Positions 34,563-40,458 of a stretch of DNA of 64,000 bases are shown one piece after another. Source of the stretch: Caldicellulosiruptor changbaiensis (lineage in GTDB: Bacteria > Bacillota > Thermoanaerobacteria > Caldicellulosiruptorales > Caldicellulosiruptoraceae); assembly GCF_003999255.1 (NCBI RefSeq), contig NZ_CP034791.1, forward strand, positions 1,218,501-1,282,500, in the 5' to 3' direction. Both the position numbers and the translations under genes were made by a program. The notes under the pieces were generated by a model that worked only from the letters and a program-made list of their open reading frames with translations, was not told the DNA's origin and ran no database searches. Every line of letters begins with the position of its first letter. Position 1 is the first letter of the stretch.

Positions 34563-36134
34563 ATGTCTGACAATACAAAAAGGATTACAAAAGCGACCTT
34601 TTTGGTGATAATGGCAACAATATTGTCAAAGTTATTTGGATTTTTTCGTGAGGTTGTATTAGGGGCGTTTTACGGAACAAGCTATAAATTGGATTCACTA
34701 ATTGCTGCCCAGCTGTTGCCGGGCGTTTTTTTTGCAAGTATATTGGCCTCGTTTTCAACAACATTTATACCAATTTACAATGAAATAGTAGTAAAAGAAG
34801 GAAGACAAAGAGCAAATAGGTTTGTAAATAAAGCCCTTTTTTTAATTGTTGCTTCTGCTCTTTTTATTGCAATTATTGGCTTTATTTTTTCACCTTTTAT
34901 AGTTGACATAATATTTAAGGGTTTTGATTTGCCAAAAAAGCAGCTTACTTCACAGCTTATGAGGATTACTTTCTTTTATATAATCTTTTTAGGAGCTAAT
35001 TATATATTCCAAGGTTTTCTACAATCAAATGAAAATTTTGTTATTCCAGTATTGGTGGGACTTCCTTTTAATGCAATAATCATTCTTTCTGCTTTCCTCA
35101 AAGATTTGTTCGATATATACGCTGTTGCAATTGCCTTTGTTTTAGGATATCTTTCAATGGTGATATTTCAAATACCATTTGCCAAGAAAAAAGGCTTTAA
35201 ATGGGAACTTAATTTTAATATAAACGATGAATATCTACAAAAAATGTTTAAACTTGTCTTGCCAGTTTTTATTGGTTCATCTGTGATGTCATTAAACTCT
35301 TTTGTGGATAGGTATTTAGCTTCATATTTGCAAGAAGGAAGTATTTCAGCATTAAACTATGCTGATAAACTCAACGGCTTAGTTTATGGCATCTTTAGTG
35401 CTTCAATTTCAGCAGTTATTTACCCTTATCTCTCACGGTTTTTTTCAAGTAGCCAACAAGAAGAGTTTAAAAAGTATTTGATACTCTCAATTAACTCTCT
35501 AATTTTGATAATGATTCCGATTACATTCGGAGTTTTTATTCTTAGCAATGAAATAGTCCAAGTTGTCTACGAAAGAGGAGCGTTTAATAAAAAGTCTACA
35601 TATCTTACAAGTGGTGCACTCATGTTTTTCTCCTTAGGATATTTAGGGTATGCAGTAAGAGATATACTTAGCAGGACATTTTATTCAATCCAAGATACGT
35701 TGACACCTATGAAAAACGGGATATTTGCTGTTGCTGTTAACATTATTTTAAATGTAATTCTTGTTAAATTTTTACAGCACAGAGGTTTAGCTCTTGGGAC
35801 AAGTATTGTGGCATATGTCTCGGTATTTTTACTTTTAAAGAGCTTAATTAAGAGAATAGGGAAAATAGATTTAAAAAATTCGTTAATTGTCCTTTTAAAA
35901 GCAATTTTTGCATCAGTGTGTATGTTAATAGCTATTATTCTTGCAAAGAGATTTGTGTATATAACAACACCTCATTTGTTTTTAACACGAACAATAAATT
36001 TAGCGATCCAGATATTTTGTGGAGTAATTTCATATTCAATTGTGATTTATCTTTTAAAGGTCAATGAAGTCAAGTGGCTCTTTGAAAACTCAAAGCTTGT
36101 GTTAAGCAAATTCAGAGATTTAGTTGCAAAATAA
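34563..36134 (+). CDS. murJ: lipid II flippase MurJ
   Basis: Polytopic MOP-superfamily membrane protein (523 residues, about 14 TM helices) that flips lipid II across the membrane. Typical are FGFFREVVLGAFYGTSYKLD near the N-terminus, the LNYADKLNGLVYGIFSASIS segment, and YERGAFNKKSTYLTSGALMF. The 3' end overlaps the convergent acetyltransferase gene by 23 nt. Confidence 0.93.
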   Translation: MSDNTKRITKATFLVIMATILSKLFGFFREVVLGAFYGTSYKLDSLIAAQLLPGVFFASILASFSTTFIPIYNEIVVKEGRQRANRFVNKALFLIVASALFIAIIGFIFSPFIVDIIFKGFDLPKKQLTSQLMRITFFYIIFLGANYIFQGFLQSNENFVIPVLVGLPFNAIIILSAFLKDLFDIYAVAIAFVLGYLSMVIFQIPFAKKKGFKWELNFNINDEYLQKMFKLVLPVFIGSSVMSLNSFVDRYLASYLQEGSISALNYADKLNGLVYGIFSASISAVIYPYLSRFFSSSQQEEFKKYLILSINSLILIMIPITFGVFILSNEIVQVVYERGAFNKKSTYLTSGALMFFSLGYLGYAVRDILSRTFYSIQDTLTPMKNGIFAVAVNIILNVILVKFLQHRGLALGTSIVAYVSVFLLLKSLIKRIGKIDLKNSLIVLLKAIFASVCMLIAIILAKRFVYITTPHLFLTRTINLAIQIFCGVISYSIVIYLLKVNEVKWLFENSKLVLSKFRDLVAK

Positions 36135-36600
36135 CAACATCTAAATATCTGCCAAATTTATAACCTACATTATATAGTTTCCCAACCTCAACAAATCCTA
36201 AGGATTTGTGCAAGTTAAGACTTGGTTGATTTTCAGTACAGATTTTGGCAATGATATTTTTAAATCCATTTTCTCTTCCCTTTTCAATCAAAAATTTTAA
36301 AAGCATTTTGCCAATACCTTTTCCTCTGTGAAGATGGTGGATATATATAGAATCTTCTACAGTAATAGAATATCCCTCTTTATCAGAAAAAGGTGATAGA
36401 CAACCATAACCAATTATTAATTTTGAACTATCTTCAACTACATAAATTGGGTATTTAAAACTGTGTAGGTCAAAGAATTTTAAAAAGTCCTCGGTAGATT
36501 TTGGCCGAGTATCAAATGTTGAGGATGAGTTTAAAACTTCGTAGTTATAAATTGATAAAATTTGTGGTATGTCAGAGATTGTAGCCTTCCTGATAATCAT
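36112..36600 (-). CDS. GNAT family N-acetyltransferase (phosphinothricin acetyltransferase-like)
   Basis: 162-residue GNAT enzyme. It starts MIIRKATISDIPQILSIYN and has STFDTRPKS (as in phosphinothricin/methionine-sulfoximine acetyltransferases), the acetyl-CoA loop HRGKGIGKMLLKFLIE and SLGFVEVGKLYNVGYKFGRYLD near the end. ATG 36600 has AGGAGGTTTAAAG upstream; upstream in-frame starts up to 36663 would only add a poor extension. Substrate uncertain. Convergent with murJ and divergent from nth. Confidence 0.88.
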   Translation of the reverse strand: MIIRKATISDIPQILSIYNYEVLNSSSTFDTRPKSTEDFLKFFDLHSFKYPIYVVEDSSKLIIGYGCLSPFSDKEGYSITVEDSIYIHHLHRGKGIGKMLLKFLIEKGRENGFKNIIAKICTENQPSLNLHKSLGFVEVGKLYNVGYKFGRYLDVVILQLNL

Positions 36601-36665
36601 CTTTAAACCTCCTCCTTTTTTGGTCATTTTTAAATATCTAAAAAACAAATAGGGAGTGAACAAAG

Positions 36666-37322
36666 ATTACAAAAACACAAAAGGCAATATACGTAATAAA
36701 AAAACTTTTAGAGATTTATCCAGAACCAAAGTGTACCTTAGATTATGATAAACCATATGAGCTTTTAATAGCAACAATTTTAGCAGCCCAGAGTACTGAT
36801 GAACGTGTAAATAAGATAACGCCTAAGCTTTTCAAAAAGTATCCTACGCTTGAACACTTTGCAAATGCTAATTTAGAAGAATTGGAAAGAGATATAAAAC
36901 CTGTTGGGTTTTATAAAAACAAAGCAAAGAGTATAAAAGAAACAGCAAAGATTCTCATCGAAAAGTACAATGGCGTTTTGCCAGATAGCATTGAAGCGTT
37001 AACAAAGCTGAAAGGTGTGGGAAGAAAAACAGCAAATGTCATAATGGCAAACATCTTTGGAGTACCTTCCATAATAGTTGACACACATTGTATGAGACTT
37101 TCAAACAGAATTGGTTTTGTGAAAAGCAAAGACCCTGATAAGATAGAGTTTGAACTGAGAGAAATAGTTCCTTTTGACATGTACACTATATTTAGCAATC
37201 TCATGGTTTATCATGGAAGGGCTACATGCAAAGCAAGAAAACCCAAGTGCAGTGAATGCATTATAAACAATGTATGCGACTTTTACAAGAGGTTGTCTAA
37301 TGACATAATTCTAAATGTTTGA
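36666..37322 (+). CDS. nth: endonuclease III, with ATT start codon
   Basis: Bifunctional DNA glycosylase/AP lyase for oxidised pyrimidines. Homology runs upstream of the first conventional start (TTG 36882) through IYPEPKCTLDYDKPYELL and LAAQSTDERVNK, which holds the conserved Gln. An in-frame TGA at 36657 leaves ATT 36666 as the only sensible start; AGGGAG lies 9 nt before it. The resulting 218 residues put catalytic Lys at 121 (GVGRKTAN) and Asp at 139 (VDTHC), one off E. coli K120/D138. The FeS loop is C-x6-C-x2-C-x5-C in CKARKPKCSECIINNVC. Confidence 0.93.
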   Translation: MTKTQKAIYVIKKLLEIYPEPKCTLDYDKPYELLIATILAAQSTDERVNKITPKLFKKYPTLEHFANANLEELERDIKPVGFYKNKAKSIKETAKILIEKYNGVLPDSIEALTKLKGVGRKTANVIMANIFGVPSIIVDTHCMRLSNRIGFVKSKDPDKIEFELREIVPFDMYTIFSNLMVYHGRATCKARKPKCSECIINNVCDFYKRLSNDIILNV

Positions 37323-38428: not shown

Positions 38429-39494
38429 TCTCTATATGATTGCAAAACCACTTTTTGAAGAGCTTGGATTTGAAGTCATTGTCCCGCCACCGAATAACAG
38501 AAAGACTTTGGAGATTGGGAAAAACTACTCACCTGAATTTATATGTATGCCATTTAAGCTCAACATAGGAAACTTTGTTCAGGCAATTGAAATGGGTGCT
38601 GATACAATTGTGATGTTTGGTGGATGTGGTCCGTGCAGGTTTGGATACTATGGTGCACTTCAAAAGGAGATTTTAAAAGACGCTGGATTTGACGTTCAGA
38701 TGATTGTAATTGAACCACTTCATTATGGAATTGAAAATTTTTTATCTGAAGCAGGGAAGGTCTTTGCCAAGAAAAACTTAATTGGTATTTTGCCTAAAAT
38801 CTATAGTTTGGCAAAGATGATTGACAGGATTGAAAAAAGAGTGCATTTTCTAAGACCTAGGGAAATGGTAAAAGGAAATGTTGATAGGATATATAATCGA
38901 TTTAGAATTGAGGCTTTGAAAACAAAAGGTATTGAACAGATGAAAAAGTTAACAGAAGCAACTACTGTACTTTTAGATAATGTGTATGTAGTAGATGAGA
39001 ATGTAAAAAAGATTGGAATTGTAGGAGAGATATATACTATTATAGATGACTTTGCAAATCTCAATATTGAAAAGATAATAGGAGACATGGGATATGAGGT
39101 GGAGAGAAATTTATATATTTCATACTGGATCGACAATCATTTGATATATCCATTGCTAAGAAAAAAAGACCTAGTTGTAAAAAGATATTCAAAAGACATA
39201 ATGGAGAATCTGATTGGTGGTCATGCAAGAGAGACAATTGCCTACGCGAAATGGTTTGAAAGTAAGTATTTTGCCGGTATTGTTCATGTCTTTCCTCTCA
39301 CATGTATGCCAGAGATAGTAGCAAAGTCTGTATTGGCCGATCTCAGAAATGAACTTAGAGTGCCTCTATTGCACATTGTTGTAGATGAAATGGAAAGTGA
39401 TGTGGGGCTAAAAACGCGTTTAGAGGCCTTTTTAGATTTAATCGAGTCAAGGAGTGAAAAAAGTGGACAAGCTAAACTGCTTTCTTGGAATTGA
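38400..39494 (+). CDS. 2-hydroxyacyl-CoA dehydratase-related protein, COG3581 type (second subunit)
   Basis: 364-residue partner of the preceding protein. Cluster-type cysteines: C49 (EFICMPFKLNIGN), C76 and C79 (GGCGPCRFGYYG) and a later PLTCMPE. ATG 38400 has GGAGAGA upstream and lies inside the previous gene (29-nt overlap), so translation is coupled; TTG 38382 is a less likely start. With the downstream ATPase it resembles ATP-driven low-potential reductases such as double-cubane-cluster proteins or dehydratase components; which of these applies is not decidable here. Confidence 0.75.
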   Translation: MKITFPHMGNLYMIAKPLFEELGFEVIVPPPNNRKTLEIGKNYSPEFICMPFKLNIGNFVQAIEMGADTIVMFGGCGPCRFGYYGALQKEILKDAGFDVQMIVIEPLHYGIENFLSEAGKVFAKKNLIGILPKIYSLAKMIDRIEKRVHFLRPREMVKGNVDRIYNRFRIEALKTKGIEQMKKLTEATTVLLDNVYVVDENVKKIGIVGEIYTIIDDFANLNIEKIIGDMGYEVERNLYISYWIDNHLIYPLLRKKDLVVKRYSKDIMENLIGGHARETIAYAKWFESKYFAGIVHVFPLTCMPEIVAKSVLADLRNELRVPLLHIVVDEMESDVGLKTRLEAFLDLIESRSEKSGQAKLLSWN

Positions 39495-40458
39495 TATAGG
39501 CTCTGTTAGTACAAACGTGGTATTGCTTGACGAGAATAACAACATTGTAGAAAGTATATATGTAAGAACAGAGGGCAGACCAATTGAAGTTTTGCAAAAA
39601 GTGCTTGCACAGCTTTATCAGAAGTATGAGGAGAGGTTAAAAATCTCAGGAGTTGGGGCAACAGGATCTGGTCGTAATCTTGCTGCAATAATGGTTGGAG
39701 CAGATACTGTAAAAAATGAGATTACAGCACATGCAAAGGCAGCAATTCATTTTATTCCAAATGTGAGAACAGTAATTGAGATAGGTGGACAGGACTCAAA
39801 GATAATTTTGATAAAAAACGAAATTGTAGTTGACTTTGCAATGAACACTATCTGTGCTGCAGGGACAGGTTCATTTTTGGACAGGCAAGCAGAGAGGCTA
39901 AACATTCCTATAGAAAGGCTTGGAGAGATAGCAATAAAATCTAAAAATCCTGTGAGGATTGCGGGAAGGTGTGCTGTGTTTGCAGAATCTGACATGATTC
40001 ACAAACAACAGCTTGGACATCTTTCCGAAGATATCCTTTTTGGACTTTGTTTAGCGCTTGCAAGAAATTATATCTCAAACGTTGCAAAAGGTAAGACAAT
40101 TGAAGAGCCTATTATATTTCAAGGTGGAGTTGCTGCAAACATCGCAATGAAAAAGGCGTTTGAACAGGTTTTGCAAAAAGAGATTGTTGTTCCTCAGTAT
40201 TTTAATGTCATGGGAGCAATAGGTATAGCCCTTTTAGCAAAAGAGAAGACAAAGGGGCTTATAAGTAACTTTAAAGGGTTTGATTGTATCAACAACAGCA
40301 AGTTTGAAACAAGGGGATTTGAATGCAAAGAGTGTTCTAATAACTGTGAAGTAGTAGAATTTTACAACAATAATAACTTAGTTGCTACGTGGGGTGACAG
40401 GTGTCAGAGATACTCAAGTAGCAAAAATCACCATGTTGAAAAGTCGAAGAATCTGTGA
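39463..40458 (+). CDS. BadF/BadG/HgdC-type activating ATPase
   Basis: ASKHA-fold ATPase that drives electrons onto a partner Fe-S protein at ATP cost (activator of 2-hydroxyacyl-CoA dehydratase or benzoyl-CoA reductase). GIDIGSVSTNVVLLDE and EIGGQDSKIILI are nucleotide-binding; NTICAAGTGSFLDRQAERL and AGRCAVFAESDMIHKQQ carry the two cysteines that hold the dimer-bridging [4Fe-4S]. Unlike short activators it has a Cys-rich C-terminal extension (FECKECSNNCEVVE ... GDRCQRY) that may bind a further cluster. GTG 39463 has GGAG 8 nt upstream; GTG 39454 is the alternative and sits inside the Shine-Dalgarno. Overlaps the previous gene by 32 nt. Confidence 0.85.
   Translation: MDKLNCFLGIDIGSVSTNVVLLDENNNIVESIYVRTEGRPIEVLQKVLAQLYQKYEERLKISGVGATGSGRNLAAIMVGADTVKNEITAHAKAAIHFIPNVRTVIEIGGQDSKIILIKNEIVVDFAMNTICAAGTGSFLDRQAERLNIPIERLGEIAIKSKNPVRIAGRCAVFAESDMIHKQQLGHLSEDILFGLCLALARNYISNVAKGKTIEEPIIFQGGVAANIAMKKAFEQVLQKEIVVPQYFNVMGAIGIALLAKEKTKGLISNFKGFDCINNSKFETRGFECKECSNNCEVVEFYNNNNLVATWGDRCQRYSSSKNHHVEKSKNL

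Follow-up and report, generated by a model that had tools for sequence, protein, structure and literature searches.

Near-cognate start codons are normally rejected by IF3. To our knowledge, conserved AUU starts have been documented for few genes of bacteria, and these encode mostly regulators or translation factors. For pcnB of E. coli it is known that an AUU start limits a nucleic-acid enzyme. As start codon, infC has ATT in B. subtilis (PMC6097659), AUA in S. aureus (PMC13009471) and, in E. coli and Streptomyces, ATT and ATC, respectively (PMC5472188). Streptomyces sigR, with a GTC start, is repressed by IF3 (PMC5472188). In poor medium, S. aureus reporters starting at AUU and AUA reached about 10% of the level obtained with AUG (PMC13009471). 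With rcsD-HPt of Y. pestis, exchange of AUU for GGU abolished the function, and exchange for AUG raised it (PMC10191623). PncA of Borrelia burgdorferi (BBE22) was reported to start at AUU, and its database sequence is truncated (PMC13398362). For nth, the gene of endonuclease III, no report of an AUU start was found in the open-licence literature.

Sequences and comparison set

The window is the whole analysed stretch of 64,000 nucleotides, positions 1,218,501-1,282,500 of the complete one-contig chromosome (2,905,633 bases, about 2.9 Mb) of Caldicellulosiruptor changbaiensis. The comparison set comprised 12 genomes of the genus, the window's own (G000) included. Start-codon census and Shine-Dalgarno (SD) statistics were obtained from a 464 kb sample of the window's genome. 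The features are listed in Table 1.

Table 1 Features of the nth locus (window positions) and the infC start of the same genome
Feature	Position	Strand	Basis or remark
Putative GNAT-like acetyltransferase, divergent, ATG 36600-36598	36112..36600	-	ORF list; name from motif by eye
SD GGGAG; GGAG end 9 nt before ATT	36652..36656	+	Predicted anti-SD duplex; GGAG in 12/12
In-frame TGA stop, 2 codons ahead of ATT, closing the nth frame	36657..36659	+	TGA in 11/12 genus genomes
Proposed ATT initiation codon	36666..36668	+	ATT at this codon in all 12 genus genomes; homologous codon in G012 also ATT
nth, endonuclease III, 218 aa from the proposed ATT to TGA 37320-37322	36666..37322	+	TIGR01083, Pfam domains; intact in 12/12 genus genomes
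TTG, first standard start in the nth frame	36882..36884	+	Position varies among relatives
Catalytic Lys codon, K121 from ATT (E. coli K120)	37026..37028	+	Alignments
Catalytic Asp codon, D139 from ATT (E. coli D138)	37080..37082	+	Alignments
4Fe-4S cluster C-X6-C-X2-C-X5-C: C188, C195, C198, C204	37227..37277	+	PF10576 match and sequence
infC ATA start (outside the window)	G000:C1 ~1526957-1526955	-	Loci L108-L119

Protein and reading frame

The identification as endonuclease III in the original prediction agrees with the TIGR01083 equivalog model, for which the product scores 255 bits at a cut-off of 211.7. The nearest solved structures are 1p59/1orn (E ~1e-54), and E. coli 2abk was also matched. 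The Pfam domains HhH-GPD and EndIII_4Fe-2S (PF10576), the motif LKGVGRKTA with the catalytic lysine, VDTH with the catalytic aspartate and the canonical spacing of the four cluster cysteines were all found. Judged by these features, the protein is an ordinary Nth. Residues 5-208 of 2abk align to 8-211 of the query, numbered from ACA 36660, and Met1 of the E. coli enzyme falls one residue after the isoleucine encoded by ATT. Counted from ATT, the catalytic residues lie within one position of their E. coli counterparts, as had been described.

The frame is open from the upstream TGA to the TGA at its end. The sequence was confirmed to continue after the upstream stop with ACA AAG ATT ACA AAA ACA CAA AAG GCA ATA. 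AGGGAG (36651-36656) is located 9 nt before ATT. The homology had been estimated to extend about 70 residues upstream of the first in-frame ATG, GTG or TTG; the distance from ATT to this codon, TTG 36882, is 72 codons, and the TTG lies inside the conserved protein. The HhH-GPD match begins well ahead of TTG 36882, and a protein started there would therefore be devoid of part of the catalytic domain.

The stretch ahead of the first standard start was compared for nucleotide changes over codons 2-72 (71 codons). Between the window's nth and G008, 6/1/25 changes were counted at codon positions 1/2/3; the counts were 9/0/26 for G007 and 12/3/22 for G005. By this pattern the stretch evolves as coding sequence. 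When 287 coding-like ORFs of the 464 kb sample were scanned for codon usage, nth ranked first for coding sequence upstream of the first standard start, with 74 coding-like codons counted from the stop. As ATG, GTG and TTG make up 4.4% of the internal codons in this sample, a single run of 72 codons free of them has a probability of about 0.04, which is not striking by itself. What goes beyond chance is the stop directly before the homology, together with the same arrangement in all 12 genomes. Two further ORFs from the same genome, L155:8746-9597 (-) and L148:12264-13334 (-), in which 30-40 coding-like codons precede the first standard start, lack an SD at the 5' end; they are likely frameshifted or truncated genes.

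Conservation in the genus

Each of the 12 genomes has one nth orthologue, with 75-97% identity to that of the window. ATT was found at exactly the same codon in every genome, and an in-frame stop lies two to three codons upstream of it (TGA in 11 genomes; in G007 a TAA that is nearer by one codon). Between this stop and the conserved protein neither ATG nor GTG nor TTG occurs in any of them. The first in-frame standard start is at codon 72, 69, 103, 16, 9, 33 or 38, depending on the genome, and no such position is common to all. The proposal of an ATT start is thereby supported at the level of sequence, since ATT, SD and upstream in-frame stop occur together throughout the genus.

The identical codon, taken alone, is weak evidence for a start. 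Ten isoleucine columns are invariant in the 12 proteins, and four of these, the start column included, use a single codon throughout. The constancy of the third base was therefore dropped as proof of selection at the nucleotide level.

In G007 an additional base is present between the SD and the ATT. The upstream frame is altered by it, and both SD and ATT are kept; thus, the bases upstream of ATT would be leader and not codons. This pattern is predicted by a leader followed by an ATT start and not by an overlooked upstream start.

Ribosome-binding site and upstream region

GGAG was present in 12 of 12 genomes, as GGGAG in most, and ends 9 nt before ATT (10 nt in G007). For pairing with the anti-SD, energies between -6.8 and -8.2 kcal/mol were predicted across the 12 genomes, the distance from the scored segment being 7-9 nt. 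In the 464 kb sample the commonest distance of GGAG from the chosen starts is 8-9 nt, with which the spacing of 9-10 nt in nth is consistent, and GGAG stands 8-10 nt before only 0.9% of the internal isoleucine codons.

The divergent GNAT-like gene and the ATT are separated by 65 bp, which can be aligned across the genus. Directly upstream of nth no gene on the same strand is available for coupling. A promoter scan of nth gave as best hit a 9-of-12 match at 36569-36597, which is chance level, and RNA structure around the start was not above that of shuffled sequence (z -0.38 to 1.14).

Other readings of the start

Initiation elsewhere in the frame, giving a shorter protein, is an unlikely reading. 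The start would then be a nearby near-cognate codon (ACA or AAG before ATT, ATA at codon 8, codons 10-11) or the first internal standard start. In five of the 12 genomes codon 10 is GTG, and a gene caller would pick it; the alignments to TIGR01083 and the PDB structures begin only after the first 6-7 residues of Nth. However, the remaining genomes have GTA or GTT at this place, and ATA at codon 8 is replaced by Asn or Ser in the other clade. The two codons before ATT also vary (ACA, CCA, ATA, ACG or a stop; AAG, AAA or GAG). The first standard start, moreover, ranges from codon 9 to codon 103 and often lies deep within the HhH-GPD domain. None of all these codons is served by an SD at the right distance.

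Still less probable is a start at the GTG contained in the SD (36656-36658), followed either by a +1 frameshift into the nth frame or by termination of a small ORF and reinitiation at ATT. This GTG stands 10-11 nt before ATT in all 12 genomes, and in several of them it opens an ORF of five codons with TAA just past ATT. It belongs, however, to the SD element GGAGTGA, and no separate SD lies before it at a suitable spacing. In G007 it stands in a different frame (offset -11 instead of -10), and its ORF has between 5 and 30 codons depending on the genome, so that conservation is seen for neither a shift site nor a stop. GGAGTGA also serves ahead of ordinary starts, being found 8-10 nt before four other genes with standard starts, one of them inside the window. 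Thus, the GTG is explained as part of the SD. At about 39463 of the window GGAGTGA stands 8 nt before the GTG start of a 331-codon ORF listed at 39454-40458 (+); the listed GTG 39454 is probably three codons too early.

A sequencing error that masks an ATG, or an nth in decay as a pseudogene, can practically be dismissed: lone ATT changes do occur in this genome, as in a secreted-protein-like ORF with ATT where two relatives have ATG, but for nth the search for a hidden ATG, GTG or TTG in the relatives returned ATT in 12 of 12, which excludes both a base error and a start peculiar to one strain, and the frames are open to the end, under purifying selection and with intact active-site residues.

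The secreted-protein-like ORF, L151:10942-11568 (-), corresponding to G000:C1:2260942-2261568, was considered as a second conserved ATT start and rejected, as ATT is found only in the window's genome and ATG in G005 and G001. Its ATT follows AGGAGG and represents, unlike that of nth, a lone start-codon change or a base error. Only broken pieces of this ORF were detected in G011.

Starts of nth outside the genus

In the one other genome of the family (G012), ATT is found at the homologous codon after a GAGGTGATC element. An in-frame GTG is present within this element, three codons before ATT. Therefore, G012 is ambiguous and gives no independent support for the ATT start. Most relatives in the class (loci L120-L133) have TTG-(AGA/CAA/AGG)-ATA-ACN-AAR, with an apparent TTG start two codons earlier. 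These relatives keep the isoleucine at the homologous place as ATA, and no ATT was found there in the sampled relatives outside the family. In a simple history that we propose, the ancestor started at TTG, this codon was lost, and the isoleucine codon close by took over as start. The isoleucine may thus be kept partly as an amino acid from a formerly internal position. All 80 of the more distant nth loci sampled offer a standard start no later than residue 14, by a lenient test that a chance upstream codon passes. Weak starts seem habitual for nth across the wider class, as most of the relatives have TTG.

A second Nth-like HhH-GPD protein (27-31% identical) is encoded in every genome of the genus (G000:C1:2370426-2371061; L014-L024). 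This paralogue was dropped as a further ATT case, its starts being standard ATG codons.

Discussion

The comparison within the genus lets us strongly infer initiation at the ATT codon of nth. Very probably, translation of nth begins at an AUU codon throughout the genus, with fMet-tRNA and driven by the SD; its efficiency would be low and IF3-sensitive. GGAG, 9-10 nt upstream, would position the 30S subunit on AUU, where the initiator fMet-tRNA would be accepted despite the mismatch at the third position. The resulting Nth would begin with fMet-Thr-Lys. By the S. aureus reporters, its output would be low, about a tenth of that from AUG, and would rise when IF3 is scarce relative to the 30S subunits.

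The infC genes of the genus bear on the role of IF3. In 12 of 12 genomes no standard start was found at the SD of infC; ATA stands 9 nt after AGGAGG (GGGAGG in G008) and is probably the usual autoregulatory start of IF3. Hence, discrimination or proofreading by IF3 probably operates in this genus.

Like nth, infC has a conserved near-cognate start behind a good SD. It encodes the discriminating factor itself, which results in a feedback loop, whereas nth stands outside the translation machinery. The closest parallels to the nth start appear to be sigR and Borrelia PncA. sigR of Streptomyces is likewise a gene of the damage or stress response with a non-standard start conserved in the genus and a strong SD, and it is misannotated by gene callers. 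It differs in its GTC codon and in encoding a sigma factor, for which the ratio to the anti-sigma factor matters; the effect of IF3 is experimental for sigR, whereas nth is known from sequence. Borrelia PncA is, as Nth, an enzyme with an AUU start, and its database sequence is without a necessary N-terminal part. In this case only one organism was reported, and 24 residues are lost compared with 72 for nth in the window's genome.

Starts conserved at the genus level and preceded by an SD are also described for Firmicutes, with cvfC1 (AUU) and ccpN (AUA) of staphylococci and bacilli (PMC13009471). These have strong SDs, were mapped by initiation profiling and give, in poor medium, about 10% of what AUG yields (PMC13009471). 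In contrast to nth they encode regulators or small proteins, and their SD is extended, that is longer and closer, compared with the ordinary GGAG at 9-10 nt. The enzyme encoded by pcnB acts on nucleic acid and starts at AUU like Nth, but it is unrelated and comes from Gammaproteobacteria. In general, the nth start adds to the small known set of conserved AUU starts; the mechanism is not new.

By analogy with these genes, initiation at the AUU of nth would be weak and limit expression, and the cell probably keeps Nth scarce. Tuning by IF3 is suggested by sigR, infC, cvfC1 and ccpN. As an alternative to such tuning, the weak start may just fix a low dose of Nth. That selection maintains the AUU to let IF3 set the dose of Nth, tying the repair capacity to the state of translation throughout the genus, is a tentative idea which we consider possible and rather doubtful.

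For annotation, a gene caller limited to ATG, GTG and TTG would likely place the start of the window's nth at TTG 36882, with a loss of 72 codons. In every sequenced species of the genus such callers would truncate an active enzyme, and the cut would fall at places that are not homologous, from 9 to 103 codons into the gene. The test for a stop just upstream together with a conserved SD is usable on other genes to count such starts. Furthermore, as a core DNA-repair enzyme with an AUU start throughout the genus, Nth offers a test case for control by IF3 beyond infC. If it is true that IF3 sets the dose of Nth, this would be the DNA-repair counterpart of sigR in Streptomyces.
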